A stretch of 64,000 bases of DNA from Algibacter marinivivus (GTDB taxonomy: Bacteria; Bacteroidota; Bacteroidia; Flavobacteriales; Flavobacteriaceae), in contig NZ_QFRI01000004.1 of the NCBI RefSeq assembly GCF_003143755.1, positions 1 to 64,000 of the forward strand. The letters run 5' to 3'. The notes under the pieces were generated by a model that saw only the letters and a program-made list of their open reading frames with translations, ran no database searches and was not told the DNA's origin. Shown in pieces: positions 10,771 to 60,820 of this stretch. Position 1 is the first letter of the stretch. Every line of letters begins with the position of its first letter. The position numbers were made by a program, and so were the translations under genes.

Positions 10771-13005
10771 ATGAAACACATTATTTTACCCTTTTGCATT
10801 TGTCTTTTTATAACAACAATTTTATCAGCTCAAACTAAAGACATAACACTTGAAGATATTTGGAAAGATGGTTCGTTTAGAACTGAAAGGATGGATGCGT
10901 TACATTCCATGGCCAACGGACAGCAATACTCCGTTTTAAACTTTGATAGAGAATCAAGGAGTACTTCTATAGATATTTACGATTATAAAACTTTAAAAAA
11001 GGAAGCGACTATAGTTAATTCTGCTAATCTTGAGGAAATCCCTTATTTTACGGATTATACCTTTAGTAAAGATGAACAACTAGTAATATTGGCAACAAAT
11101 GAAAAAGCTATATATAGACGTTCTGCTTTAGGGAATTATTATGTTTACAATGTAAAAGAAGGATCTTTGGATTTAATTTCTGAAGATAAAATTCAAGAAC
11201 CTACATTTTCGCCTGATGGTAAGAAAGTTGCTTTTGCAAAAGAAAACAATCTTTATGTAAAAGATTTAAGTTCAGGTAAAATTACTCAAATCACTTCTGA
11301 TGGGGAAAAGAATAAGGTAATTAATGGTATTACAGATTGGGTTTACGAAGAAGAGTTTGGTTTTGTTCGTGCATTTGATTGGAATGCTGATAGTAATAAA
11401 ATTGCATTCATTCGTTTTGATGAAACTAATGTGCCTGAGTTCTCTATGGATGTTTATGGCTCTGAGCTTTATCAAACGCAACAAGTTTTTAAATATCCTA
11501 AAGCTGGTGAAGCAAATTCTTTAGTGTCTTTACATCTTTATGATTTAAGTTCAGATAAAACCAAAACGGTTAAAGTAGATAAAGCTTATGAAGACTTTTA
11601 TATACCTAGAATTAAATGGACTAATAATCCAGATATTTTGAGCGCGCAATATATGAACAGACATCAAAATGAATTAGATTTATGGATGATAAATGCTAAA
11701 GCTAATACTTCAAATTTAGTGTTAGAAGAAAAAGATAAAGCATATGTTGATGTAACTGATAATCTGACTTTTTTAGATGACAATAGCTTTATTTGGACTA
11801 GTGAGAAAGACGGTTATAATCACATCTATCATTATGATAAAAATGGAAATTTGATAAATCAAATAACTAAAGGTAACTGGGAAGTAACTAATTATTATGG
11901 TTATGATGATAAAAGTAATACCATTTTTTATCAGTCAGTTGAAAATGGTTCTATAAATAGAGATGTTTATTCTGTTAAATTAAACGGAAGAAATAAAAGT
12001 CGTCTTACTAAAAGTGAAGGTACTAATAATGCTTCCTTTAGTGCAGACTTCTCATTTTTTATAAACACATTTTCTAGCGCTACAACACCGCCAGAATACA
12101 CTTTAAATAGCTCTACTTCTGGAAATTTAATAAAGAGTATAAAAGATAATGATAAACTAGCTCAAAAATTATCTGAATATAAAACATCAAAAAAAGAATT
12201 CAGTACCATTACTATAAATGGGAATGATTTAAACATGTGGATGATAAAACCGGCTAATTTTGATGAATCTAAAGTATACCCTCTATTAATGTATCAATAT
12301 TCTGGACCAGGATCTCAGCAAGTTGCTAACAGATGGAATGGCGCAAACGATTATTGGTATCAGCATTTAGCTCAAGAGGGTTATATTGTTGCCTGTATTG
12401 ATGGTAGAGGAACAGGTTTAAAAGGTGCTGATTTTAAAAAAGTAACTCAAAATGAATTAGGAAAATACGAGGTTGAAGATCAAATTGCCGCTGCTGAACA
12501 ATTAGGTGAATTACCGTATATTGATGCCAGCAGAATTGGTATTTGGGGATGGAGTTACGGAGGCTTTATGAGTAGTAATTGCTTATTTAAAGGAAATGAT
12601 GTGTTTAAAATGGCAATAGCCGTTGCACCTGTGAGTAGCTGGCGTTTTTATGATACCATTTATACTGAGCGATACATGACAACACCACAAGAGAATGCAA
12701 GCGGATATGATGAAAATTCTCCGATAAACCATGTAGATAAATTAAAAGGCGATTTCCTTTTAGTACATGGTTCAGGAGACGATAACGTACATTTACAGAA
12801 TACGATGCGTTTAGCAGAAGCTTTAATTCAAGCGGATAAACAATTTGATTGGGCGGTTTATCCAGATAAAAACCATGGTATTTATGGAGGTAATACAAGA
12901 CTTCATTTATATAAAAAAATGACCAATTTTATTCATGAAACACTTGGGGATAAAATTCTAAAAGAAGAAGAAACTAAAGTGAATCAAGTTAAAATTAAAG
13001 GATAA
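10771..13005 (+). CDS. Dipeptidyl-peptidase IV-type serine peptidase (S9B)
   Basis: 744 residues. Removes N-terminal dipeptides (Xaa-Pro preferred in the family) from peptides, probably in the periplasm. Signal peptide 1-20 (ends ILSAQT), then an eight-bladed-propeller DPPIV N-domain (about 90-440), then an alpha/beta-hydrolase domain. Catalytic residues: Ser595 in GWSYGGF, Asp670 in GSGDDNVH, His702 in KNHGIYGG. The propeller DWVYEEEFG carries the double-Glu motif that binds the peptide amino terminus in DPPIV. Followed after 23 bases by two peptide transporters, consistent with peptide scavenging. Confidence 0.93.
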   Translation: MKHIILPFCICLFITTILSAQTKDITLEDIWKDGSFRTERMDALHSMANGQQYSVLNFDRESRSTSIDIYDYKTLKKEATIVNSANLEEIPYFTDYTFSKDEQLVILATNEKAIYRRSALGNYYVYNVKEGSLDLISEDKIQEPTFSPDGKKVAFAKENNLYVKDLSSGKITQITSDGEKNKVINGITDWVYEEEFGFVRAFDWNADSNKIAFIRFDETNVPEFSMDVYGSELYQTQQVFKYPKAGEANSLVSLHLYDLSSDKTKTVKVDKAYEDFYIPRIKWTNNPDILSAQYMNRHQNELDLWMINAKANTSNLVLEEKDKAYVDVTDNLTFLDDNSFIWTSEKDGYNHIYHYDKNGNLINQITKGNWEVTNYYGYDDKSNTIFYQSVENGSINRDVYSVKLNGRNKSRLTKSEGTNNASFSADFSFFINTFSSATTPPEYTLNSSTSGNLIKSIKDNDKLAQKLSEYKTSKKEFSTITINGNDLNMWMIKPANFDESKVYPLLMYQYSGPGSQQVANRWNGANDYWYQHLAQEGYIVACIDGRGTGLKGADFKKVTQNELGKYEVEDQIAAAEQLGELPYIDASRIGIWGWSYGGFMSSNCLFKGNDVFKMAIAVAPVSSWRFYDTIYTERYMTTPQENASGYDENSPINHVDKLKGDFLLVHGSGDDNVHLQNTMRLAEALIQADKQFDWAVYPDKNHGIYGGNTRLHLYKKMTNFIHETLGDKILKEEETKVNQVKIKG

Positions 13006-13028
13006 GAATACTAACCAAAACTAAATAT

Positions 13029-14609
13029 ATGGCTACTTCGGCATTAAAACCACATCAAAAAGAACTTTTCGGGCAACCAATAGGATTGTATATATTATTC
13101 CTTACAGAAATGTGGGAACGTTTTTCATACTATGGTATGCGTGCGTTATTAGTGTTATATATGACTACTCAAACAATTGGCGACGACCGAGGAGCTGGTT
13201 TAGGTTGGACAAACCAAGAAGCATTAGCACTTTATGGTTGGTATACTATGTTGGTTTATGTCATGTCAATTCCTGGAGGTATGATTGCTGATAAATTGAT
13301 TGGACAAAAGAAAGCAGTACTTATAGGAGCTATAGTGCTTTGTTTAGGTCATGGTGTTTTAGTGCTTACAGATATTTGGGCTTTTTACACTGGTCTTGGA
13401 TTAGTGATTTTAGGTGTAGGATTATTAAAACCTAATATTTCAACTATGGTTGGAGGTTTGTATAAACAAGGCGATATTAGAAGAGATAAAGGGTTTAGTA
13501 TCTTTTACATAGGGATAAATTTAGGGTCATTATTAGCAACCTTAACAGTAGGTTTAGTTGTTGCAGAATGGGGATGGCACGCTGGATTTGGTTTAGCTGG
13601 AGTAGTAATGGTTTTAGGACTAATAAATTATTTAGCTGGTCAAAAATACTTAAAAGGAGTTGGTGATTTTATCCCGAGTAAGAATGATGAAAACGAAGTG
13701 TCATATGGAAAATTATATTCAAAATTATTTAGTTCTCCTAAGCAATTGATATTTGCAGGAATTTTGCTAGTAGCTTCATTTATCGGTTGGTATTATATGG
13801 ATTGGAGTTATGGATTATTGTTTGTTTTTTTAACTGCAATCGCAGCATTGTTAATGATGATTTATAAAGAGCTAGATACTCAGGTTTACAAAGACCGTTT
13901 TTTAGTTCTGTTATTATCATTTATTATGGTTATCATCTTTTGGGGTGCTTTTGAACAAGCTGGAGGTTTAATGAATTTATACACAGAAACCAATACAAAT
14001 AGAATGCTATTTGGTTGGGAGGTTCCAACGGTAATGTTTCAAAGTTTAAATGCAGGTTTTATAATTATTTTTGCAACTATTATTGCTGGAATTTGGGCTA
14101 AACGAAAACTTAAAGGAAAAGAAGCGTCTTCTCTTTTTAAAATGGCAATAGGAATAATTATAATGGGGTTTGGTTTTCTGTTTATGGTATTTGCCGTAAA
14201 AGATTTTGAATCAAGTGGTCCTGTAATTGAAGGTATTTCAGGTTCAGGTTCTGCAATGTATTGGTTAGTACTAGCATATTTATTTCATACTATAGGTGAG
14301 CTTTGTATTTCTCCTGTAGCCTTATCTTTCATAACTAAATTGGCTCCAGTTAAATATGCATCTCTAATGATGGGAGTTTATTTTGCAGCTACAGGCTTAG
14401 GAAATAAAGTAGCTGGTATTGTTGGTGAATCCGCTTCAGAATTTGGAGAACTTACCATATTTTCTGGTATTGTAATATTCACTGTTATTATAGGAATATT
14501 ATTTATTGCCATTTTGAAGCCTTTAAAACGTTTGACACATGGTGCAGAGGAAAGTGAAAGGGTATTAAAAAATGAAGAAGCCGAAGGATTCGAATTAGCA
14601 GATAATTAA
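13029..14609 (+). CDS. Proton-dependent oligopeptide transporter (POT/PTR2), copy 1
   Basis: 526 residues with about 12-14 hydrophobic spans. The first helix carries the POT signature EMWERFSYYGMRALL (ExxER motif for proton coupling). FYIGINLGSLLA matches the PTR2 family signature, and IFWGAFEQAGG holds the conserved helix-7 motif. It takes up di- and tripeptides with protons across the inner membrane. It lies 23 bases after the dipeptidyl peptidase gene and is followed by its own terminator and a paralogue. Confidence 0.92.
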   Translation: MATSALKPHQKELFGQPIGLYILFLTEMWERFSYYGMRALLVLYMTTQTIGDDRGAGLGWTNQEALALYGWYTMLVYVMSIPGGMIADKLIGQKKAVLIGAIVLCLGHGVLVLTDIWAFYTGLGLVILGVGLLKPNISTMVGGLYKQGDIRRDKGFSIFYIGINLGSLLATLTVGLVVAEWGWHAGFGLAGVVMVLGLINYLAGQKYLKGVGDFIPSKNDENEVSYGKLYSKLFSSPKQLIFAGILLVASFIGWYYMDWSYGLLFVFLTAIAALLMMIYKELDTQVYKDRFLVLLLSFIMVIIFWGAFEQAGGLMNLYTETNTNRMLFGWEVPTVMFQSLNAGFIIIFATIIAGIWAKRKLKGKEASSLFKMAIGIIIMGFGFLFMVFAVKDFESSGPVIEGISGSGSAMYWLVLAYLFHTIGELCISPVALSFITKLAPVKYASLMMGVYFAATGLGNKVAGIVGESASEFGELTIFSGIVIFTVIIGILFIAILKPLKRLTHGAEESERVLKNEEAEGFELADN

Positions 14610-49999: not shown

Positions 50000-50863
50000 C
50001 TAACCTAAATATGTTTTTAATATTTTACTTCTAGACGTATGTTTTAATCTACGTATAGCTTTTTCTTTAATTTGTCTTACACGCTCTCTAGTTAAATCGA
50101 AAGTCTCACCAATCTCCTCTAAAGTCATTGGGTGTTGGTTTCCTAACCCAAAGTACAAACGAATAACATCAGCCTCACGAGGTGTTAATGTTTCCAAAGC
50201 ACGTTCAATTTCCGTACGTAAAGATTCATGTAATAATTCTTTATCAGGATTTGGAGACTCTCCAGAGTTTAATACATCGTATAAGTTAGAATCTTCACCC
50301 TCAACTAAAGGTGCATCCATACTTACGTGGCGTCCAGAATTTTTCATAGACTCCTTAACATCATTAATGGTCATGTCCAACTCCTTAGCTATTTCTTCAG
50401 CAGAAGGCGGGCGTTCATGACTTTGCTCTAAAAAGGCAAATGTTTTATTAATCTTGTTAATAGAACCAATCTTGTTTAATGGTAAACGTACAATACGCGA
50501 TTGTTCAGCTAAAGCTTGAAGAATCGATTGACGAATCCACCAAACAGCGTACGATATAAATTTAAAACCACGCGTTTCATCAAAACGTTGTGCAGCCTTA
50601 ATTAAACCTAAATTACCCTCATTAATTAAATCCGGTAAAGTAAGCCCTTGGTTTTGGTATTGTTTAGCAACAGATACAACGAAACGTAAATTAGCCTTCG
50701 TCAATTTCTCTAAAGCTATCTGATCACCAGCCTTAATACGTTGTGCTAATTCAACTTCTTCATCAGCTGTAATCAAATCAACCTTACCAATTTCCTGTAG
50801 ATATTTATCTAACGATGCAGTTTCTCTATTAGTAACCTGCTTCGTAATTTTAAGTTGTCTCAT
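50000..50863 (-). CDS. rpoD: Primary RNA polymerase sigma factor (RpoD/SigA, short Bacteroidota type)
   Basis: 287 residues, without the long region 1.1 and non-conserved insert of E. coli RpoD. Regions: 1.2 ([15 protein letters not shown]), 2 ([56 protein letters not shown]), 3 and 4 ([36 protein letters not shown]). This is the Bacteroidota housekeeping sigma factor that recognises the TTG/TAnnTTTG promoters seen in this window. Confidence 0.96.
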
Positions 50864-51192
50864 CTAATGTTTCCTGAATTTAATTGTGAATAAATAGGTC
50901 GTTCAATAGTTATACGTACAAATGTTACATTTTGTTACAAAAAAAGATTAAAATATTTCAATCTCTTGATTATTAGACACTAAAAACACATAAAAGTCAC
51001 ATGCACTTTAATTATTTGGGCATTACCCACAAGGGGTCGGGCTTTTTGTTACAAGTCCTCGCGCCTCTCCCGATAGCTATCGGGATCAGGCTGTGGGCTT
51101 TCCTCTGCAATCCCTAATGCGCTTAATGTTGTGGCTTATTCGCTTAAAAGATAGGTGTAAATAAAAATAGTAAAAAAAAATATGGTATTTCT
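50864..51192. other. Non-coding gap upstream of rpoD
   Basis: Contains the rpoD leader and promoter region (no exact TAnnTTTG box found), a dispersed repeat (51012-51120), and AT-rich sequence before the distal end of the cassette array. No gene is seen on either strand. Confidence 0.5.
51012..51120 (+). repeat. Dispersed intergenic repeat, copy A
   Basis: Begins TATTTGGGCATTACCCACAA, continues with GGGGTCGGGCTTT and ends GCAATCCCTAATGC. The same frame is found at 60821-60909 and, inverted, at 63527-63653. The middle is variable and here holds the hairpin TCCCGATAGCTATCGGGA. Confidence 0.75.
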
Positions 51193-51382: not shown

Positions 51383-51517
51383 GTTGCCAACGTGTTTGTA
51401 TATGGTTTGTTGCGTGGTTTAGCACGTAATTTAGCAAATAAAAACCGAATAGAAAATCCGCGAGGATTTTCGTAAGTAGGCTAGAACTAGCAATAAATTA
51501 TATACGGTGTTGGCAAC
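51383..51517 (-). repeat. attC-like site 1 (distal)
   Basis: Ends GTTGCCAAC and GTTGGCAAC. Inner stem GTATATGGTTTGTTGC with GCAATAAATTATATAC, 16 bp with three G-T pairs on the plus strand. A small hairpin GAAAATCC-GCGA-GGATTTTC lies in the middle. It serves the cassette holding genes at 51553 and 51859. Confidence 0.75.
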
Positions 51518-51552
51518 TGGCTTTTATTTATTCAGTTCAATTATTCTCTAAA

Positions 51553-51852
51553 TTAATTTAAAAATAGACTTGCTAAAATTGGCAAAATTCCAAAAATGAC
51601 AAGTCCAACTATTGAAGTCCAATATTGATAATTTTTCTTCTCTTTTTTTATGGTACTAAAAATTATAAAAATCAGACTCAATAAAAGTAAAACTGTTCCT
51701 AAAATTCCGAAATAAAATAAAACTTCTGCTGTGTTGTCTCCTTCATTAAATATACTGGTGTAGCTGATTGTTAGATAAAAGGAAATAATATTTATTACTA
51801 AAATCCAAATCATAAAATGGAATGCCCATTTTTTAAAATTTATGCTATTCAT
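51553..51852 (-). CDS. Cassette-borne small membrane protein
   Basis: 99 residues, three hydrophobic spans (about 10-28, 41-65, 77-97) and a basic loop TIKKEKKNYQYW. No known motif. It is the second gene of the last cassette, six bases after the lipoprotein gene, making this the only two-gene cassette in the array. It may act with that lipoprotein. Confidence 0.7.
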   Translation of the reverse strand: MNSINFKKWAFHFMIWILVINIISFYLTISYTSIFNEGDNTAEVLFYFGILGTVLLLLSLIFIIFSTIKKEKKNYQYWTSIVGLVIFGILPILASLFLN

Positions 51853-51858
51853 TTTAAG

Positions 51859-52425
51859 TTAGTTTTTCAGTTCGTTTTTATACAATTCCGCTATTTTATT
51901 TCTTTCGTTTTCGTTTTTTAAAATATTTTGAAGCCACATTTGTGGTTGGTCTGTTGCATTTCCATATTCTCTATCCTTATATTCTTTAAATTCCGAAAAT
52001 TCAAGCCAATTCTTGTTGTGAATATGCTGAAGTGAATAAACAGCCATTTCTCCGTTTGTTGCTCCAAAAAATGGGCAAGTATGCACTTTGGTTTTAGTTG
52101 TGTCAGAAAGCTTGGTTATAAGAAATTCAGTCAATTCCGTTTTGTCATTTTTCGCAAACTTTTCCCATTCTTTTTCACTAAAAACCATAGTGGGAATTTT
52201 TCTCTTTTTTTCTGTGACATATTGTGTTCCACCTAAACAGCCTCCTTTTTCAAAGACCATAAAATTCCACTGTTCAGCAATTGAATCGGTTTGTTGAATT
52301 TCGGGTTGGGAAAATTCTTTAGACAATTCAGCAGTTTCAATGCTCAATTCAGATTTTGACTCCGATTGATTTTTACAGGAAATCAAAGTTAAAATCAGAA
52401 GTAATATGTTTAATGCGTGTTTCAT
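51859..52425 (-). CDS. Cassette-borne lipoprotein, function unknown
   Basis: 188 residues. Signal MKHALNILLLILTLISC with a lipidated Cys17, then a polar Glu/Ser-rich linker and a folded domain with WNFMVFEKGGCLGGTQYVTE and VHTCPFFGATNGEMAVYSL. No family recognised. The ATG lies 18 bases from the cassette boundary at 52443, so the leader is very short. Confidence 0.75.
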   Translation of the reverse strand: MKHALNILLLILTLISCKNQSESKSELSIETAELSKEFSQPEIQQTDSIAEQWNFMVFEKGGCLGGTQYVTEKKRKIPTMVFSEKEWEKFAKNDKTELTEFLITKLSDTTKTKVHTCPFFGATNGEMAVYSLQHIHNKNWLEFSEFKEYKDREYGNATDQPQMWLQNILKNENERNKIAELYKNELKN

Positions 52426-52434
52426 TTTCAGCTT

Positions 52435-52572
52435 GTTGCCAACGGTTTTGTGTATGGTTAGTTGCGTGGTTAAGCAACTAAGTTAACAAACAAATCACAG
52501 ATAGAAAATTCCAGAGGAATTTTCGTAAGTCGGCAGTGACCAAGCAATTAATTATACACGTTGTTGGCAATA
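52435..52572 (-). repeat. attC-like site 2
   Basis: Left core GTTGCCAAC matches its own downstream cassette; right core GTTGGCAATA matches the left core of site 3. Stem GTGTATGGTTAGTTGC (52450-52465) with GCAATTAATTATACAC (52544-52559): 16 bp, three G-T pairs on plus. Internal loop 6 against 3 bases next to the core. Central hairpin GAAAATTCC/GGAATTTTC. Confidence 0.8.
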
Positions 52573-52576
52573 GTAT

Positions 52577-53164
52577 TTATTCTTTTAGAGTCGGTTCATA
52601 TGGAATTCCGAATAACCCATTTACTAAAGTAATTCCGAATTCTTTTTTTTGTTCAACTTTCGCATAGTCACTTTTATCCATAAATATTCCATCAACATTA
52701 TCATCGTAAGATTTTCCAGTAATTCTACCTCGAACTTCATATTTACCATCAGACTTGATAACCCAAGGTTCAGATGATATTAATTTTCCATTTTCACGAA
52801 ATGTCATTGTACTCATAACGAAATTTTTTTCCGTCGTTTCTGTTTTGGATATTCTATTCATTTTTAGAGTAACAGTTGTCAATAAACTAGATGACAAACT
52901 ATAAATCAAGTAACTCATTATTCCAATATATCCAAGATGTGAGATTCTAGACCAATTTCCTCCGTTATATTCCGATTTTTTGAAAACGAGTATTGAAGAA
53001 ATTATAATCGATAAAGCAATTGATATTGGCAAAAGAGTTTTCTGTAAATCCGAAATGTCAGTTGTCAAATAGAGTTCAGATTCCTTTGGTAAAAAATAAA
53101 AGGCTGAAGACAAAGACGTGACTAAAAATATAAGTCCAATTATTATTCGGGTTCGTTTTTTCAT
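52577..53164 (-). CDS. Cassette-borne membrane protein, function unknown
   Basis: 195 residues from the ATG at 53164. Three hydrophobic spans (about 6-24, 46-65, 75-98), then a soluble domain (about 105-195) with KYEVRGRITGKSYDDNVDGI. An in-frame start at 53206 is rejected because the added residues are encoded by attC-like site 3. No family recognised. Confidence 0.72.
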   Translation of the reverse strand: MKKRTRIIIGLIFLVTSLSSAFYFLPKESELYLTTDISDLQKTLLPISIALSIIISSILVFKKSEYNGGNWSRISHLGYIGIMSYLIYSLSSSLLTTVTLKMNRISKTETTEKNFVMSTMTFRENGKLISSEPWVIKSDGKYEVRGRITGKSYDDNVDGIFMDKSDYAKVEQKKEFGITLVNGLFGIPYEPTLKE

Positions 53165-53166
53165 AT

Positions 53167-53303
53167 TATTGCCAACGGTCTTGTGTATGATTAGTGGCGT
53201 GTTCAAGCACCTAATTTAGCAAATAAAAACCAAATAGAAAATCCGCGAGGATTTTCGTAAGTAGGCGAGAACTAGCCATTAATTATACACGTTGTTGTGC
53301 AAC
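53167..53303 (-). repeat. attC-like site 3
   Basis: Left core TATTGCCAAC, right core GTTGTGCAAC, which do not pair with each other but pair with the cores across the flanking cassettes. Stem GTGTATGATTAGTGGC (53183-53198) with GCCATTAATTATACAC (53275-53290): 16 bp, two G-T pairs. TGGC/GCCA replaces TTGC/GCAA of sites 1, 2 and 7, a compensatory change. Confidence 0.8.
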
Positions 53304-53308
53304 GTTTT

Positions 53309-53773
53309 TTAATCTCCACTCCAATCTGGATATCCTATTTGTCCCCAAAAATATCCACTGTCTTTATTGATAATATAAATAACAAATTGATGTTCCGTTT
53401 GTACAGTTTTCAAATATGTATTTTGATTCTTGGTAATCGGTTCAACATTTTCATTTATATAGGTTGATACACTTTCAATAAGCTGGTCATCTTCTGAACC
53501 ATATAATTTAAGAAGTTCGTTTTCTATTTCATCCGAATATTGATGCATTTCGTTTGTTGCAACGAATTCAAGTGCTGATTCTCGGTCAAATTTTAGGTGA
53601 AGCCATATTAGTCCTTCAAGGTCATCTTCACAATCCAATATTTCAACATTTTCAGGGAATTTTATCCCGCTTGAGTTTTCAAAGAAGTCAAATTCGCAAT
53701 AAGATTTTGTTTTTACATTTTTACAAGACATTAAAGAAATACCAAGTGCGAATACGAATATTAAATTCCGCAA
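53309..53773 (-). CDS. Cassette-borne lipoprotein, function unknown
   Basis: 154 residues if translation begins at TTG 53773, which gives a good lipoprotein signal (LRNLIFVFALGISLMSC, Cys at about 17). The open frame runs on to 53950, but those residues come from attC-like site 4 and are unlikely. The mature part is acidic, with CEFDFFENSSGIKFPENVEI and a C-terminal YFWGQIGYPDWSGD. No family recognised. The start is uncertain; an internal frameshift hiding an ATG is possible. Confidence 0.62.
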   Translation of the reverse strand: MRNLIFVFALGISLMSCKNVKTKSYCEFDFFENSSGIKFPENVEILDCEDDLEGLIWLHLKFDRESALEFVATNEMHQYSDEIENELLKLYGSEDDQLIESVSTYINENVEPITKNQNTYLKTVQTEHQFVIYIINKDSGYFWGQIGYPDWSGD

Positions 53774-53874
53774 CAGTTTAGCTCGACTTCCAAGTTCATT
53801 TTCATTTTTTAATTCAGCTCGTAAATTTGTATTCAGTTTACTCAATTCAGAAGTATTTTCGTTTTTTGGCAAAT

Positions 53875-54014
53875 GTTGCACAACGGTTACGTATAAGAAT
53901 AGTGCGGTTTTGTGTCCGAGGATTTTCCGCAGGAAAATCAGAGCGACCAAATACGCGCTAACCTTTAGATTTAGGAATAAATTTAAGCATTATTTTTATA
54001 CAATGTTGTGTGTA
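53875..54014 (-). repeat. attC-like site 4
   Basis: Cores GTTGCACAAC and GTTGTGTGTA. Stem GTATAAGAATAGTGC (53891-53905) with GCATTATTTTTATAC (53987-54001), 15 bp with two G-T pairs on plus. The sequence differs from sites 1-3 but the pairing is kept. The central hairpin is GATTTTCC-GCA-GGAAAATC and lies nearer the left arm; site 5 shares this layout. Confidence 0.78.
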
Positions 54015-54025
54015 CGTGCTTTATT

Positions 54026-54592
54026 TCAGTCACTTTTCTTAATAACGTTATACGGTAAAAGTTCGACAATAACTTTTCCGTTTTTGTCTTTTTTTATTAT
54101 TCTTTCAGGTTTTTTTTCTCCGTTTGTCAATATTCGTGCTTTATAAAACAATTCCATATTTCCATTTAAGAAACCATTTCCATATTCCGCTAATTCAGTT
54201 TTCGCTTTTTCCAAACTTGCTCTAAATTCACGCTTTTTTGGAAAGTCATAACCATTATATTTTTTATTCGGTTCAGACATTCTTTGAATATCAGATATTG
54301 ATATAGAATCCCATTCCGATTCAAAAAAGTCATCGCAATTTCCTTCTCCAAGTATTATGTCATAATTGTATGGATAATCAGTTGGGAAATCAGATGCAGT
54401 TATTTTTATATATTGTTCTTCTTTTCGCCAAATAATAGTCGTAAAGTACGTTTCAATTTTTTTACTATGTAATTGAAATTCGTTTTTTTCTACAAACGTT
54501 CCAACTGTTTCTAATGCAGATTTTGCAAACGAAATATGCTTCCTCGAAGGTTTTGAATTATCTCCAAATTTTAAAAAGTCAAATATTCCCAT
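54026..54592 (-). CDS. Cassette-borne cytosolic protein, function unknown
   Basis: 188 residues from MGIFDFLKFGDN at 54592. No signal peptide or membrane span; mixed polar composition, a TYFTTIIWRKEEQYIKITAS beta-rich part, and a Lys-rich end. No family recognised; size and style recall proteins of polymorphic-toxin immunity type, but nothing proves it. Residues upstream to 54616 are encoded by the site boundary and are excluded. Confidence 0.68.
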   Translation of the reverse strand: MGIFDFLKFGDNSKPSRKHISFAKSALETVGTFVEKNEFQLHSKKIETYFTTIIWRKEEQYIKITASDFPTDYPYNYDIILGEGNCDDFFESEWDSISISDIQRMSEPNKKYNGYDFPKKREFRASLEKAKTELAEYGNGFLNGNMELFYKARILTNGEKKPERIIKKDKNGKVIVELLPYNVIKKSD

Positions 54593-54607
54593 AATCTTGG
54601 TCAGCAT

Positions 54608-54746
54608 TACACACAACGGTTACGTATATGAAATGTTGCGTGTTTGTGTGCGAGGATTTTCCGAAGGAAAATCAGAAGCTAACAAACGAGCAACAAACTT
54701 TGGTTTAGGTAAAACTAGCAATTTTTTATATACTTTGTTGTGGCTA
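54608..54746 (-). repeat. attC-like site 5
   Basis: Cores TACACACAAC and GTTGTGGCTA. Stem GTATATGAAATGTTGC with GCAATTTTTTATATAC, 16 bp with two G-T pairs and a single mismatch in the A/T run. Central hairpin GATTTTCC-GAA-GGAAAATC. Confidence 0.76.
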
Positions 54747-54751
54747 GTTTT

Positions 54752-55237
54752 TTATATTTCACTTAATCCAATTAGGCTTAAAAATCCGACAAATGTAAAT
54801 GCAGTATCCAAAATATTCAATTTTCGGTCGTCTTTTGGTGAAAACCAAGCTGCAACCATAAATTCTTGTTTTGTGAAAACTAAACTTATTATTCTAAATA
54901 ATGTCAAAATGATTACAAGTCCGATTAATGTTTTGTCATAATTTGCATAAGAACCAACCGTTGAATTAAAATCCGAATTTCTTTTTAAGCCATTTAATAT
55001 ATACCATTGTATAAGTCCAATTCCGAACCAAATTAATGTAATTGACTTTTCTCTAAATCTTTGATAATACATCCAAAAAAGAGATATTGGTCCGCCGAAA
55101 GTCAAAACTAAAAGTAATGTATTAATAGTTTTTTGGGGAAAAATAGAGAATTTATAAAAAAAGCATATAAGTCCGCCGAACAGAATGTAAATTCCAATGT
55201 AAATTAAATCAATTATTTTCACTTTATTTCTGGTCAT
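54752..55237 (-). CDS. Cassette-borne multi-spanning membrane protein
   Basis: 161 residues from ATG 55237 with about five hydrophobic spans (first: IIDLIYIGIYILFGGLICFF). A GTG at 55252 is excluded because it lies in attC-like site 6. No motif recognised; small polytopic proteins are frequent cassette cargo. Confidence 0.68.
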   Translation of the reverse strand: MTRNKVKIIDLIYIGIYILFGGLICFFYKFSIFPQKTINTLLLVLTFGGPISLFWMYYQRFREKSITLIWFGIGLIQWYILNGLKRNSDFNSTVGSYANYDKTLIGLVIILTLFRIISLVFTKQEFMVAAWFSPKDDRKLNILDTAFTFVGFLSLIGLSEI

Positions 55238-55245
55238 TCTCAAAT

Positions 55246-55383
55246 TAGCCACAACGGTCTTGTGTATGATTAGTGGCGTGTTTAAGTACTAAAGTTAGCA
55301 AATAAATCACAAATAGAATATTCCGCAGGAATGTTCGTAAGCAAGCTAAAACTAGCCATTAATTATACGCGTTGTTGTGCAAC
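55246..55383 (-). repeat. attC-like site 6
   Basis: Cores TAGCCACAAC and GTTGTGCAAC. Stem GTGTATGATTAGTGGC with GCCATTAATTATACGC, 16 bp with two G-T pairs and one T-G pair. Central hairpin arms GAATATTCC and GGAATGTTC. Same TGGC/GCCA variant as site 3. Confidence 0.8.
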
Positions 55384-55387
55384 GTAT

Positions 55388-55909
55388 TTATATTTTCTTT
55401 ATAATCCAATTCGATATTTTTTCAATGCGGAATATTATAATTAGTGTCAAAATCGTTTTTAGAATATAATTCGCAATTGCAAAATCAGGTAATTCAATTT
55501 CTTCATTTCCATTCAGGCTCGAAATGAATTTTGAGCAGTAATCAATCAAGTCCGGAATTAGATAAATTAATTTCGCCAACCAAATAACTCCAACTGTCAA
55601 TAAAATCACTTTTGTCAGAGATTCAGCGTTCAGTTCCGTTTTTATTTCATTGTCCGTTTTTATTAGTTTTTTAGCAATCCATTCCGCTTTCAAGAATAGA
55701 AATATGGATACGACAATATTCGCTATTGTCAGAAATGTTCCAGTAAAATAGAATTTATCAATCGGTTCACTTAACAATTCGTCAAATCGAGCCATAGTTG
55801 CAGTTCCGTAAACAGAAAAAAAGTAAGAACCAAAATGGTCAAAAATTTTCGTCAGTAAAAATATTCCAGCAATTCTAATTATTAGAGCTGTTAAAATTCG
55901 GTTTGTCAT
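55388..55909 (-). CDS. Cassette-borne membrane protein, function unknown
   Basis: 173 residues from ATG 55909 (MTNRILTALIIRIAGIFLLT). About four hydrophobic spans, an acidic stretch NGNEEIELPDF and a basic end. Twenty-two residues upstream of this ATG (from 55975) are mostly site 7 sequence and are excluded. No family recognised. Confidence 0.7.
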   Translation of the reverse strand: MTNRILTALIIRIAGIFLLTKIFDHFGSYFFSVYGTATMARFDELLSEPIDKFYFTGTFLTIANIVVSIFLFLKAEWIAKKLIKTDNEIKTELNAESLTKVILLTVGVIWLAKLIYLIPDLIDYCSKFISSLNGNEEIELPDFAIANYILKTILTLIIIFRIEKISNWIIKKI

Positions 55910-55931
55910 TAACTTTCGGTTTTGGTCATAT

Positions 55932-56070
55932 GTTGCACAACGGTTTTGTGTATGGTTAGTTGCGTGGTTAAGCAACTAATTTAGCAAATAAATCACAGAT
56001 AGAATATTCCGCAGGAATGTTCGTAAGTCGGCAGTGACCTAGCAATTAATTATACACGGTGTTGCCACCA
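55932..56070 (-). repeat. attC-like site 7
   Basis: Cores GTTGCACAAC and GTTGCCACCA. Stem identical to site 2 (GTGTATGGTTAGTTGC with GCAATTAATTATACAC). Central hairpin as in site 6. It belongs to the transglutaminase cassette, whose start at 57040-57049 has the matching TGGTGGCAAC. Confidence 0.8.
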
Positions 56071-56076
56071 GTTATT

Positions 56077-57036
56077 TTATATTTTGAAGTTAATGACATT
56101 GTCGTGTTCAGTTTTATATAGTTGATCTCCTTGATTTTCAAATTTCACTATTTTAACTTTGAAATAAGCTGTTTTAGGAACTTGTTCTTTTCTAAATCGA
56201 AAATAAATTGTTCCATCTTGATTTATTACTTCAATGTTGTTTATTGGTTCAAAGTTCAAATTGTCACTACTCATTTTTAAACTCACAGACCATTTATTAT
56301 TCGGAAGGTTTTGAAATGTATAATAATAAAAATCTTTATCAGCCATCAGTTTAGGAACTTCTGTAAATCCAATCATAAACCAAATAGGTTTTATAAATTG
56401 AGATTTATTAAATTCCTCAAGAGATAAAGGTTCTTTTAAAAGTTGCCATTTACTGTCTTCTGGAAAATGTGTAATAATTGAATACTCAGGTTTTATGTCA
56501 AAATAAAATTCAGAGTATTCTTCTTTTTTAGAAGTTCCCCAAGTTGTATCTATTAAAATCCACTTATTGTTTAATTTAATTGCATTCCAACCGTGTCTAA
56601 AATTATCATCTTTTGTTAATTCAACGTAATGATTTCTTTCGTCTCGAATATGTCCGATTATTATTACTGCTTCAATGTCAATCTCATCCATAAACCACTT
56701 GAAAAGATTAGAATATCCAGCGCAAACTCCTTTTCTGTTTTCATAAACTTGATATTCGTCTTGTCGATTTGAGTATTCTTTTAATGAGATTTTTCCTTCA
56801 TTTTTTTCATTCAAAGATTTATGGTCATATTCTATATTTGAACTTGTCCAGTAATAAAAAAATCTTGCTAATTGTTCTTCTTCTTTTAGATGTTTCTTTG
56901 CATAATCTGTTAAATCCCACATATCAAGATTCAATTCATTCGTTTTTTCTACCAATGCCTTTATAGATTCCGTTTGAGAAATGACAGAATTCGCTATAAA
57001 CAATATGAAAAATGTAATGCAGAAAGTTCGTTTCAT
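56077..57036 (-). CDS. Cassette-borne exported transglutaminase-like protein
   Basis: 319 residues. Signal peptide 1-20 (MKRTFCITFFILFIANSVIS, then Q). The transglutaminase-like core has Cys105 in RKGVCAGYS, His148 in FRHGWNAIKL and Asp163 in LIDTTWG, the full catalytic triad. Such proteins act as peptidases or transglutaminases in the periplasm. The C-terminal third (about 215-319) is beta-rich and ends in VNFKI. It is the first cassette after the recombinase, so it would be the most recent insertion and best expressed by integron logic. The ATG at 57036 is 13 bases from the cassette boundary. Confidence 0.82.
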   Translation of the reverse strand: MKRTFCITFFILFIANSVISQTESIKALVEKTNELNLDMWDLTDYAKKHLKEEEQLARFFYYWTSSNIEYDHKSLNEKNEGKISLKEYSNRQDEYQVYENRKGVCAGYSNLFKWFMDEIDIEAVIIIGHIRDERNHYVELTKDDNFRHGWNAIKLNNKWILIDTTWGTSKKEEYSEFYFDIKPEYSIITHFPEDSKWQLLKEPLSLEEFNKSQFIKPIWFMIGFTEVPKLMADKDFYYYTFQNLPNNKWSVSLKMSSDNLNFEPINNIEVINQDGTIYFRFRKEQVPKTAYFKVKIVKFENQGDQLYKTEHDNVINFKI

Positions 57037-57039
57037 AAT

Positions 57040-57183
57040 TGGTGGCAACTTGTTTATATAAGTATGTTTATTCTTTTTATTAATCCTTTATGGGTAGCTA
57101 AGCTGAAGTTTTTAGATTTTTTATTCAGCTTATTTTTATTAAAACATAGAATATTTCATACAATATTTAAATCTAATACAATT
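57040..57183 (-). other. attI-like region between the recombinase and the first cassette
   Basis: TGGTGGCAAC (57040-57049) ends the first cassette's boundary pair, and beyond it the sequence leaves the attC pattern, as expected for a primary attachment site. The segment also holds the inverted pair TAAGCTGAA/TTCAGCTTA (about 57098-57131), which could be an accessory site or a weak terminator. No clear promoter for the cassettes is seen. Confidence 0.5.
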
Positions 57184-57681
57184 TTATAAATTATCAAAAG
57201 GGTTTTTTATATTTCGAATACTGGTTTCACTTACATGTGTGTAAATCATTGTAGTTTTAGGGTTACTATGCCCTAATAAAGTTTGTATGTATCTTATATC
57301 TGTTCCGTTTTCGAGTAAATGTGTAGCAAAACTATGGCGCAAAGTATGCAACGTAATAGGTTTGGTAATGTTGGCTTTCTTAGCTGCTTTTTTTAAAATA
57401 TTTTGTGCACTAGAAGCACTATACAAACCACCAGATTGTCCTTCAAATAGATAATCTTTTGGTTTATATGTTTTGTAGTATAAACGTAGTAATCCTAAAA
57501 ATTTTGGAGAAAGTAAAGTATATCTGTCCTTTTTACCTTTAGCAGATTTTATATGTATAAGCATACGTTTACTATCAATATCTGTAATTCTTAACTGTAA
57601 TGCTTCTCCAATGCGTAATCCAGAAGAATAAATTAAAGTAAGTAGAGTCCTATGCTTTAAATTTATAATGCTATCTAACAA
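57184..57681 (-). CDS. Recombinase catalytic half
   Basis: 165 residues from a TTG at 57681, or entered from the N-half by a -1 shift at 57747. It contains all catalytic residues of the tyrosine recombinase. Alone it would lack DNA core binding. Confidence 0.6.
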   Translation of the reverse strand: [165 protein letters not shown]

Positions 57682-57740
57682 GTTTTTTATTTCAGTATTA
57701 CTTAAAACTTCGGGTAGTTTTTTAGGTTTTTTTGGGCGCT

Positions 57741-58301
57741 CTATTGAAAATTTGATAACAACACACCTTTATAGTCTAAATATTTTTTAATACCATTAAT
57801 ACATTGATTTTGGTAAGAAATAGATTTATTAGGCCTTACTATAAAATCATAATTAAACTGCTCAATTAATCTTGTACTTACAGGGTTTTGTTTAAGTTGT
57901 GCATATCTTAAAAAGAATGAGGTTACTTCGAAATAAGTGTTTACTGTATTGGTGCTAAGTCGTTTTTGTTGCATCCATTTTTTAAATTTTTCTAATTCTT
58001 TTTGTTGAACTTCTAATAAAACAGGTAGTTTAAGAGTATTAATATCTTCTTTGTTTTTTTTCGTTTGTACTTTTTTTGATGCTAATGCACTATAATTTAC
58101 ATACCAATTTTTACGTCTTAATGCTTTATATAACTTTTGTTTATTTAAAAAGGTATTGGCTATATAAAATGTTTTATGTGTTTTACTCCAGCACACACCT
58201 TCAATAGCATTAATATAGTTTTTTGCATCAAGATTAAACTCAAAATTAATGGAAATAACGTGTTGATTTTTATGAATTAAAGGCAATAGTGTTATGACCA
58301 T
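57741..58301 (-). CDS. Recombinase N-terminal half
   Basis: 186 residues. N-terminal domain (about 15-70) and core-binding helices (about 95-180, with KFKKWMQQKRLSTNTVNTYF). It stops at TAG two codons after the slippery heptamer. Confidence 0.6.
   Translation of the reverse strand: MVITLLPLIHKNQHVISINFEFNLDAKNYINAIEGVCWSKTHKTFYIANTFLNKQKLYKALRRKNWYVNYSALASKKVQTKKNKEDINTLKLPVLLEVQQKELEKFKKWMQQKRLSTNTVNTYFEVTSFFLRYAQLKQNPVSTRLIEQFNYDFIVRPNKSISYQNQCINGIKKYLDYKGVLLSNFQ
57747..57753 (-). promoter_or_regulatory. In-phase -1 slippery heptamer A AAT TTT
   Basis: Read on the minus strand, codons TCA AAT TTT CAA TAG contain A AAT TTT in the X XXY YYZ phase. After a -1 slip the next codons are TCA ATA GAG CGC CCA (SIERP), exactly the frame of the catalytic half. 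Confidence 0.5.
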
Positions 58302-58340
58302 AAAATGATTTTAAAATGCTAATTTATATACAAATGTAAA

Positions 58341-58374
58341 TAAAAAAGCCTGTTTCAAATTTTGAAACAGGCTT
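58341..58374 (-). terminator. Terminator of pnp
   Basis: AAGCCTGTTTCAAA and TTTGAAACAGGCTT form a perfect stem; the minus strand continues with TTTTTTATTT. It separates pnp from the recombinase gene. Confidence 0.85.
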
Positions 58375-58400
58375 AAATAAATTATAGACTATAAAAGAAA

Positions 58401-60647
58401 TTAATCCTCTTTCTTATCTTCTCTAGGTCTTCTGTCATCACGACGGTTATCACGTCCACGATTATCTCTACCTCTGTTGTCACGTCCACGGTTGTTATCT
58501 CTTGGCGGTCTTTCAACATAACCTTCAGGTTTTGGTAAAATAGCTTTACGAGATACTTTTTCCTTACGCGTACGTTTGTCTATACCAAAGTATTTTACAT
58601 CAAATATATCACCCATGTTTACAACATCAGATACATTTTCAGTACGTTCCCATGCTAATTCACTTACGTGTAATAACACTTCGTTTCCTGGAGCTTCAAC
58701 ATATTCAACAACAGCACCAAAGTCAAGCATTTTGATTACTTTAACTTCATAAACGCTACCAACTTCAGGCTTAAATAATAAAGAATCTATTTTTGCCATA
58801 ACAGCATCAATACCTTTACTACCAACACCTAAAATTTCAACAATACCTTCTTCTGTAACAGGATCTTCGTTAATAACAATAGTTGTCTCAGTTTCTTTTT
58901 GCATTTCTTGAATTACTTTTCCACCAGGACCAATTAAAGCACCGATAAATTCGTTAGGAATACGTCTTGAAACCATAGTAGGCGCATGATCTTTAACTTC
59001 TGTATTAGGTGTTTCAATAGTTTCAGTAATCTTATCTAAAATATGTAAACGACCATCACGCGCTTGTTTTAAAGCATTTACAAGAATCTCATACGATAAT
59101 CCTTTTACTTTAATATCCATTTGGCAAGCAGTAATACCATCAGCAGTACCTGTAACTTTAAAGTCCATATCTCCTAAGTGATCTTCATCACCTAAAATAT
59201 CTGAAAGCACAGCGTATTTTCCAGAATCAGCATCGGAAATTAATCCCATAGCAATACCAGAAACTGGTTTCTTTAATTGTACACCAGCATCCATCATTGC
59301 CATTGTACCAGCACAAACTGTTGCCATAGAAGACGAACCGTTAGATTCTAAAATCTCAGACACTACACGTACAGTATATGGGCAATCTTCAGGAACCATA
59401 CCTTTTAAAGCACGTTGCGCTAAATTACCGTGTCCTACCTCACGACGAGATGTTCCACGAATAGGTCTAGCTTCACCTGTAGAAAAAGGAGGGAAGTTAT
59501 AGTGTAAATAGAAACGCTCTTCACCTTCGTAAGATGGCATATCTATTTGGTTGGCTTCTCTACTTGTACCTAAAGTAACTGTAGCTAATGCTTGAGTTTC
59601 CCCACGTGTAAATATTGAAGAACCATGAGTAGAAGGTAAATAATCAACCTCACACCAAATTGGTCTAATCTCATCCGTTTTACGTCCATCTAAACGTAAA
59701 CCTTCATTTAAAGTTAAATCTCTAACCGCTGCTTTTTCAGCTTTAGAGTAGTATTTTGAAATTAACCCACCAAAATCTTCTTGCTCTTCTTCAGAAAAAG
59801 ACGCTTTTATTTCTTCTTTAATTTCACCAAAAGCAGCGCTACGTTCATGTTTTGCAGAACCTGCTTGAGCTACAGCATATACTTTATCGTATGCCATATC
59901 ATGAATTTTCTTTGCTAAATCAGCATCTTCTCTTTCTGGCTCGTACTCACGTACTTCTTTTTTACCAAAAGCTTCAGCTAATTTTACCTGTGCAGCACAT
60001 TGTACTTTAATAGCTTCGTGTGCAAACTTAATCGCTTCTGTCATTTCTTCTTCAGAAATCTCATCCATTTCACCTTCAACCATCATAACAGAATCAGCAG
60101 AAGCACCAATCATCATATCGATGTCAGACTCTTCTAATTGTGCTCTAGTTGGATTGATAACAAATTCACCATTTACACGACCAACTCTAGCTTCAGAGAT
60201 TGGACACTCAAATGGAAAATCAGATAATTGAATAGCCGCCGAAGCTGCTAAACCTGCCATAGCATCTGGCATAACATCATCATCATGAGACATTAATTGA
60301 ATCATCACCTGAGTTTCAGAATGATAATCTTTTGGGAATAACGGACGTAAAACGCGGTCTACTAAACGCATCGTTAAAACCTCTCCGTCACTAGGTCTAG
60401 CTTCTCTCTTAAAGAAACCACCTGGGTAACGTCCTGCAGCAGCAAATTTCTCTCTGTAATCTACCGTTAATGGTAAAAAGTCAACATCTGCTTGTTTGTA
60501 ATTGGAAACAACTGTACATAATAACATACATTTTCCAGATTGCACAACAACGCTACCATGCGCTTGTTTTGCTAATTTTCCAGTTTCAATAGAAATTTCT
60601 CTACCGTCACCTAGGTCAATGACCTCTTTAAAAACTTTTGGAATCAT
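58401..60647 (-). CDS. pnp: Polyribonucleotide nucleotidyltransferase (PNPase)
   Basis: 748 residues. Degrades RNA from the 3' end using phosphate. Two RNase PH domains (about 10-230 and 320-560) with [11 protein letters not shown] and [18 protein letters not shown], followed by KH (about 565-625, [15 protein letters not shown]) and S1 (about 635-705) RNA-binding domains. The C-terminus is a repeated basic [20 protein letters not shown] tail, common in Bacteroidota PNPase. The ATG at 60647 (MIPKVFKEV) is preferred over 60668. It follows rpsO, the conserved rpsO-pnp order. Confidence 0.96.
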
Positions 60648-60820
60648 AAATTTTTTCTTGTAATTCAAGCATAAATATGCTCAAATCATGTTAAACAATG
60701 GTCGTTGTGTTGTGTGTAGTTGTTGTGTGTATGACCAATGAAAAACCTTTAGTCCCGAACTCGTTTCGGGATCTAGCTTCTTCTAATGCGTGGTTTAAAC
60801 TCCTACGCTCGAGTTATATT
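60648..60820. other. Non-coding gap, rpsO-pnp
   Basis: Upstream part of the 308-base gap between pnp and rpsO. It holds the hairpin TCCCGAACTCGTTTCGGGA (about 60752-60770) and no gene. No exact TAnnTTTG box for pnp was found. Confidence 0.4.

Follow-up and report, generated by a model that had tools for sequence, protein, structure and literature searches.

Which process has lined up the small genes and palindromes that lie between pnp and rpoD in Algibacter marinivivus, and do these units move? We addressed this question by sequence analysis of positions 1 to 64,000 of contig NZ_QFRI01000004.1 (assembly GCF_003143755.1); this stretch of 64,000 nucleotides is called the window in the following, and other genomes and loci carry our own labels (G and L numbers). 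An earlier note on this DNA had described seven units with eight same-strand genes and seven related palindromes next to a tyrosine recombinase. All of these elements were found again, as seven sites and eight genes on the minus strand. The comparisons described below make it highly probable that an integron-like system with a dedicated tyrosine recombinase has built a chromosomal array of gene cassettes here.

Organization of the locus

Read on the minus strand from pnp (58401-60668) to rpoD (50000-50863), the recombinase gene is followed by seven cassettes, all in the same orientation and each closed by one hairpin site. The hairpins measure 125-128 bp when counted from CAAC to GTTG and about 140 bp with their variable ends. 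The cassette proteins are for the most part without a Pfam family; the protein of cassette 1 is transglutaminase-like. The features are given below; a slash within a motif marks a junction.

57741..58301, minus strand: cassette recombinase, 5' part, with the N-terminal beta-beta-alpha-beta-beta-alpha domain (about 90 aa) and a core-binding (SAM-like) domain
57184..57681, minus strand: cassette recombinase, 3' part, tyrosine-recombinase catalytic domain (PF00589)
57047..57110, minus strand: attI-like insertion site, ...TATATAAACAAG/TT; homology to the sister species stops here
55941..57048, minus strand: cassette 1, transglutaminase-like protein (PF01841), ends GTTGCCACCA and TGGTGGCAAC
55938..56064, minus strand: recombination site 7 (of cassette 1); the folding strand is the plus strand
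55255..55940, minus strand: cassette 2, membrane protein of 195 codons
55252..55377, minus strand: recombination site 6
54617..55254, minus strand: cassette 3, membrane protein of 166 codons; a copy, alone, elsewhere in G005
54614..54740, minus strand: recombination site 5
53884..54616, minus strand: cassette 4, protein of 196 codons, no family
53881..54008, minus strand: recombination site 4
53176..53883, minus strand: cassette 5, putative lipoprotein, no family
53173..53297, minus strand: recombination site 3
52443..53175, minus strand: cassette 6, membrane protein, no family
52440..52566, minus strand: recombination site 2
51391..52442, minus strand: cassette 7, two genes (51859-52425 and 51553-51852)
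51388..51512, minus strand: recombination site 1, end of the array

Cassette ends, crossover point and turnover

On the plus strand all sites of the window start with CAAC and end with GTTG, and the bases outside these motifs differ from site to site. The variable bases pair up across the gene and not across the site, for example GTTGGCAA with TTGCCAAC and GTTGTGTGTA with TTACACACAAC. Complementary ends are present in 7/7 cassettes of the window, including the cassette whose far end touches the recombinase. A larger sample consisted of ten arrays with 209 sites, taken from the window and eight other genomes. Here 176 of 196 cassettes had ends complementary at six or more of seven bases. Between the two ends of a single site the agreement averaged 3.0 bases (random pairs: 2.6). 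The exceptions mostly coincide with long gaps between detected sites, and such gaps probably contain an undetected site. Because the ends match across the gene and not across the site, the crossover can be placed at G^TT, and the matching cassette ends read as the signature of circles joined at this position. Behind the recombinase, each of the 14 arrays searched has a stretch complementary to the end of its first cassette; it is an exact 10-mer in 12 of them, and in 12 of the 14 it is located 31-139 bp from the stop codon of the recombinase.

Comparison with a sister species (G007) revealed turnover at the attI-like site. Both species share pnp with 99% and the N-terminal part of the recombinase with 97% identity, and the DNA of G007 remains 97-99% identical to the window up to ACAAG/TTGCCA, where it continues with a different first cassette. 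The earlier note had allowed for the case that the rpoD-pnp interval of related strains contains the same genes in unchanged order; as the cassette content differs between the sister species, this objection fails. In five other species of the genus the interval contains neither a recombinase nor sites. Transfer of a single cassette is documented by cassette 3, whose copy in G005 (about 97% identical) lies at another location among other sites. In the alignment the two sequences are unrelated up to CGTT, near-identical over gene and site, and unrelated again past CGTT. By these comparisons the units of the window are real mobile cassettes. G005 also carries a recombinase directly behind pnp (G005:C10:200615-204135), a distant relative of the one in the window. 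The position behind pnp (window 57184-58401) is thus occupied by recombinases of two branches in two species and is possibly a hot spot.

Fold and strand polarity of the sites

The pairing across the seven window sites covaries, with 92% of the cells paired, nine pairs with double changes and none of 500 shuffles reaching the same level, and for this reason the array is more than a product of chance. The L stem and the spacer were evaluated with 54 non-redundant sites. Read on the bottom strand, the L stem contains 718 Watson-Crick, 132 G.T and 2 A.C pairs, and two of the G.T positions are practically invariant. The spacer comprises 6 nt on one side and 3 nt on the other (6x3) in 54/54 sites, the three pairs flanking the bulge (spacer columns) are Watson-Crick in just 3 of 162 cells, and compensatory changes amount to 347 double-change cells compared with 123 in the shuffled set. 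The predicted folding energy of the window sites is lower as plus-strand than as minus-strand DNA. Judged by pairing and folding, the site is an attC-like hairpin with R box, unpaired spacer, L stem and variable end, formed by the bottom strand only. The L box of attC has conserved extrahelical bases, the first of which, a G, sets the strand choice (PMC2727003); in the consensus fold of the present sites the 17-bp L stem has no bulge, and the asymmetry lies in the 6x3 spacer.

The earlier note had also claimed that the sites miss the attC consensus RYYYAAC/GTTRRRY. This is borne out in the sample of 209 sites, in which the R' box fits in 16 cases, R'' in 16 and both boxes in 3. The local consensus is GTT-R-B-V-N, and of the attC boxes only GTT, AAC and a following R are kept. 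That such sites could be missed by standard models is suggested by this comparison and by the IntegronFinder 2.0 survey, in which Salinibacter ruber is the only member of Bacteroidetes proper reported with a complete integron (PMC9024848). An Rfam search with the window sites returned no family, and a pattern scan for canonical attC sites yielded too few clean ones for a covariance model.

The recombinase

Compared with the intact 375-codon frame of G007, the recombinase of the window is split over two minus-strand open reading frames by a frameshift near 57735-57745. A programmed frameshift is unlikely, since the gene of G007 is open and the window copy has, relative to it, a one-base deletion and nearby substitutions. 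Because of the frameshift the array of the window is probably inactive or frozen unless another copy acts in trans. Recombinases matching the catalytic part were found in all ten genomes of the genus.

The enzyme can be classified as a simple tyrosine recombinase that carries, in addition, an N-terminal domain of about 90 aa. This domain is predicted to adopt a beta-beta-alpha-beta-beta-alpha fold (predicted local distance difference test, pLDDT, about 90) and has no Pfam match. A structure search with the domain alone found nothing significant, with XPB and SMARCAL1 HARP domains at the top (E 0.66-0.75), and a search with the model of the full recombinase (mean pLDDT 80, predicted template modelling score 0.50) led to XerA and VchIntIA (2a3v). 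The spacing between KGxxDR and HxLRH is 58-59 residues in 86 of about 92 short recombinases, whereas it is exactly 100 in 20/20 IntI. The IntI-specific insertion of about 42 residues (helix I2, patch III) is missing, and the alignment with VchIntIA splits, with about 43 residues lacking. Four intact members score 188-203 bits with the IntI family TIGR02249 (cut-off 265 bits; IntI1 reaches 507) and 196-227 bits with the XerA family NF040815 (cut-off 220 bits), one of the four being above the latter threshold. In the tree the IntI proteins form one clade (Shimodaira-Hasegawa-like approximate likelihood ratio test 100) apart from the cassette recombinases, and the surrounding branches are moderately supported; row L152, which is labelled IntI-like, is a motif-matching artefact (spacing 307). 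A canonical IntI integron was rejected on account of the missing insertion, the family score and the tree, and the same three measures place the cassette recombinase outside IntI.

The XerA-type simple tyrosine recombinases (5hxy, 4a8e; NF040815) are the best sequence and structure match for the core and catalytic domains, but the recombinases studied here differ by their N-terminal domain and by a C-terminal tail that is IntI-like. The dif site on which XerA acts is double-stranded, and XerA is not known to have a cassette array.

Distribution of the system

A covariance model built from the seven window sites, an approach which the earlier note had recommended for Bacteroidota genomes, gave matches in 40 of 60 relatives with E values down to 1e-28. 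A refined site model matched at least 62 of the 395 Bacteroidota genomes; this is a lower bound, as few candidates per genome were scored. The complete genome G023 contains two arrays with 45 and 55 detected sites, all of them in one orientation. Open reading frames run 156 times in the array direction and 17 times against it. Among the loci of public genomes with at least 1.5 kb of sequence behind the recombinase, model sites were located downstream in 20 of 26, all on the bottom strand, and loci without model sites may still have chained complementary cassettes, such as three in an Aquimarina. At 24 loci the contig ends downstream but not upstream of the recombinase, and at one locus the reverse was found, as is expected if a repeat-rich array follows. 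Taken at these counts, the system has a wide distribution in Bacteroidota, and its arrays can exceed 50 cassettes. This distribution, together with the strand-specific fold and the assignment of the recombinase outside IntI, goes beyond what the earlier note had proposed. A true IntI is present in 105 of the 395 genomes, and none above the cut-off was detected in the A. marinivivus genome or the family members sampled.

Further arrays vary in several respects. One 435-bp cassette occurs in 13 copies over both arrays of G023 (L084-L091). At locus L101 (G010:C13) seven sites accompany a recombinase frame of 284 codons that is oppositely oriented; the locus is possibly a further variant of the platform. 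On the Rufibacter tibetensis plasmid NZ_CP012644.1 (L137:9656-16868) a recombinase of the group is followed by an array whose sites are much shorter, about 62 bp, near the size of compact attC, and site length differs between the orders of Bacteroidota. In G124 (L264, G124:C116) a model site (11148-11273) lies beside a true IntI (12243-13250) in divergent arrangement, which suggests a possible overlap or cassette exchange between both systems.

Solitary cassettes

The earlier note had regarded palindromes scattered singly across the genome, like a family of miniature inverted-repeat transposable elements (MITE), as a finding that would contradict a cassette system. Single copies do exist, with about 13 strong matches of the site model outside the array in the A. 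marinivivus genome, but they have the look of solitary cassettes, in which a site comes after an open frame, and not of bare repeats. Single cassettes are known from integron hosts, and the solitary cassettes found here resemble them.

Six of the solitary cassettes (G000: L015, L016, L018, L019, L020, L029) end at the common junction CGTT/AAACGAA, and the Rfam motif Flavo-1 RNA is located near five of these six. The sequence GTTAAACGAACNTC has six genomic copies, all behind a hairpin that is apparently of the array type, and a sub-threshold Flavo-1 match (window 51031-51127) lies 260 bp behind the array.

The tigecycline-resistance gene tet(X)

The search with the recombinase also matched the 'xerD'/tpnF gene that adjoins tet(X3) in Acinetobacter; its product is 60-68% identical to several members of the cassette-recombinase group. 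Such an 'xerD' gene accompanies tet(X3), tet(X5) and tet(X14), and at tet(X3) the order of recombinase, junction and gene is the same as in the system described here. Unlike in this system, the gene beside tet(X3) is N-terminally truncated, with ISVsa3 upstream (one record). The ends were compared at the loci L138:2967-4988 (NZ_CP104735.1), L286:2001-3340, L287:157-1490 and L288:1131-2423. The tet(X) segment begins just before the gene, at GTTATGTGCC in Acinetobacter (tet(X3)) and Empedobacter and at GTTATGGGCC in Bacteroides fragilis, and ...CG/TTA is its common end in Bacteroides, Empedobacter and Riemerella. At the 5' end the copy of Riemerella differs. The 3' site starts with GGCACATAAC, the exact 10-nt complement of GTTATGTGCC, and outside G^TT the flanks differ between the species. 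Judged by these ends, tet(X) very probably belongs to the cassettes of this system.

The origin of tet(X) has been traced to Flavobacteriaceae (PMC7494873), and a paper from 2020 treated the neighbouring 'XerD' as an XerD of unknown role and asked whether it mobilises tet(X) (PMC7473080). A description of tet(X) as a cassette of such a system was not found in the tet(X) literature examined, which included both papers.

Alternative explanations

Several observations speak against an integron-like system with a dedicated recombinase. The recombinase of the window itself is frameshifted, no recombinase was found at the head of array a of G023, the recombinase of G010 is shorter and oppositely oriented, and in Acinetobacter the 5' end and the 3' site of the tet(X3) cassette mismatch. 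In addition, the invariant G.T pairs could partly reflect protein contacts on double-stranded DNA. It is unlikely, on the other hand, that the locus is an ordinary chromosomal integron with a divergent IntI and divergent attC sites. The logic is the same as in class 1 and sedentary chromosomal integrons (IntI/attI/attC), with tandem same-strand cassettes, genes that are each followed by a site, G^TT as the crossover point, an attI beside the recombinase, a bottom-strand hairpin laid out as R box, unpaired spacer, L stem and variable loop, and cassettes both solitary and arrayed. IntI and these recombinases have the C-terminal tail (S/N)P(L/F)D in common, VchIntIA is next to XerA the nearest solved structure, and model sites also occur in some IntI-bearing genomes such as G124. 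Against this stand the short motif spacing, the sub-threshold TIGR02249 scores, the separate IntI clade and the missing IntI in the genome and the sampled family members. The recombinase moreover differs from that of integrons by the absent insertion, the extra N-terminal domain and transcription in the direction of the cassettes, and the sites differ by R boxes outside the consensus, an L stem without the single extrahelical base, the fixed 6x3 asymmetry and the two fixed G.T wobbles.

A dispersed repeat family, be it a MITE, a repetitive extragenic palindrome or a terminator, which trails genes by chance beside an unrelated recombinase, is barely credible, although the matches outside the array and the solitary copies that share a downstream junction near Flavo-1 motifs would fit it. 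Such a repeat would bring its own ends, whereas here matching ends are kept by the cassette and not by the hairpin; the solitary copies still consist of frame and site, the long same-strand arrays of G023 are not accounted for, and the exchange of whole units bounded at G^TT already refutes this explanation. It is quite improbable, too, that a different recombinase of the host, XerC/XerD or an unrelated enzyme, moves the cassettes in trans and that the adjacent enzyme integrates only the whole element. Arrays without an adjacent recombinase were found in G002, G019 and G023 (array a), and in the window an intact array follows a broken gene, but in 12 of 14 arrays from different families the recombinase is adjoined by attI and the first cassette, and the genus-wide matches to the catalytic part likewise argue against it.

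Proposed mechanism and significance

The mechanism that we propose for the integron-like cassette system builds on features that can be read from the DNA: the cassette units, the crossover point, attI, turnover, the transfer of one cassette and strand polarity. A recombinase with the N-terminal domain and a XerA/IntI-type core would insert cassettes at attI behind its own stop codon. The free cassette would be a circle with one or two genes and one site. This site would fold as single-stranded DNA of the bottom strand, with GTT/AAC at the tip of the R box, the unpaired asymmetric spacer, the L stem with its two fixed wobbles and a variable top. Crossover at G^TT would leave each cassette with 10-nt complementary ends, and an integrated site would join the ends of two cassettes. 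We infer that the adjacent recombinase performs the reaction on a single-stranded substrate, and that its N-terminal domain takes the place of helix I2 of IntI in recognising the folded site.

A review counts Bacteroidota among the integron hosts (PMC8618304), attC-like sites have been reported in a Polaribacter phage (PMC9892861), and an 'integron-like' subgroup of recombinases with a not fully conserved insertion is known (PMC8138268). No description of the present system was found in the open-access full texts searched, a search that left subscription papers and preprints outside. In the current view, recombination of single-stranded cassettes began with a double-strand tyrosine recombinase that acquired helix I2, and workers in the field point out that intermediates are lacking (PMC7790495). 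On balance we lean towards a second integron-like lineage that is widespread in Bacteroidota, has been overlooked by integron searches and serves as the vehicle of tet(X) mobility. Its I2-less recombinases would read strand-polarised hairpins by other means, namely the N-terminal domain with its weak fold resemblance to the DNA-structure-binding domains HARP/XPB, the 6x3 spacer and the fixed G.T wobbles. The lineage would be either the source of the IntI integrons or a parallel invention; an origin of IntI from the cassette-recombinase group and an origin beside it both stand, because the branching around IntI is moderately supported.

With recombinases that lack I2 at the head of bottom-strand-polarised arrays, the helix I2 step becomes testable, and the cassette reading gives a testable answer to the question how tet(X) moves. 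Taken together, an enzyme without the part thought essential for the reaction, and with sites off the known pattern, appears to work large gene arrays in the manner of the integrons that capture antibiotic-resistance genes, which would reveal an overlooked store of mobile genes in Bacteroidota.

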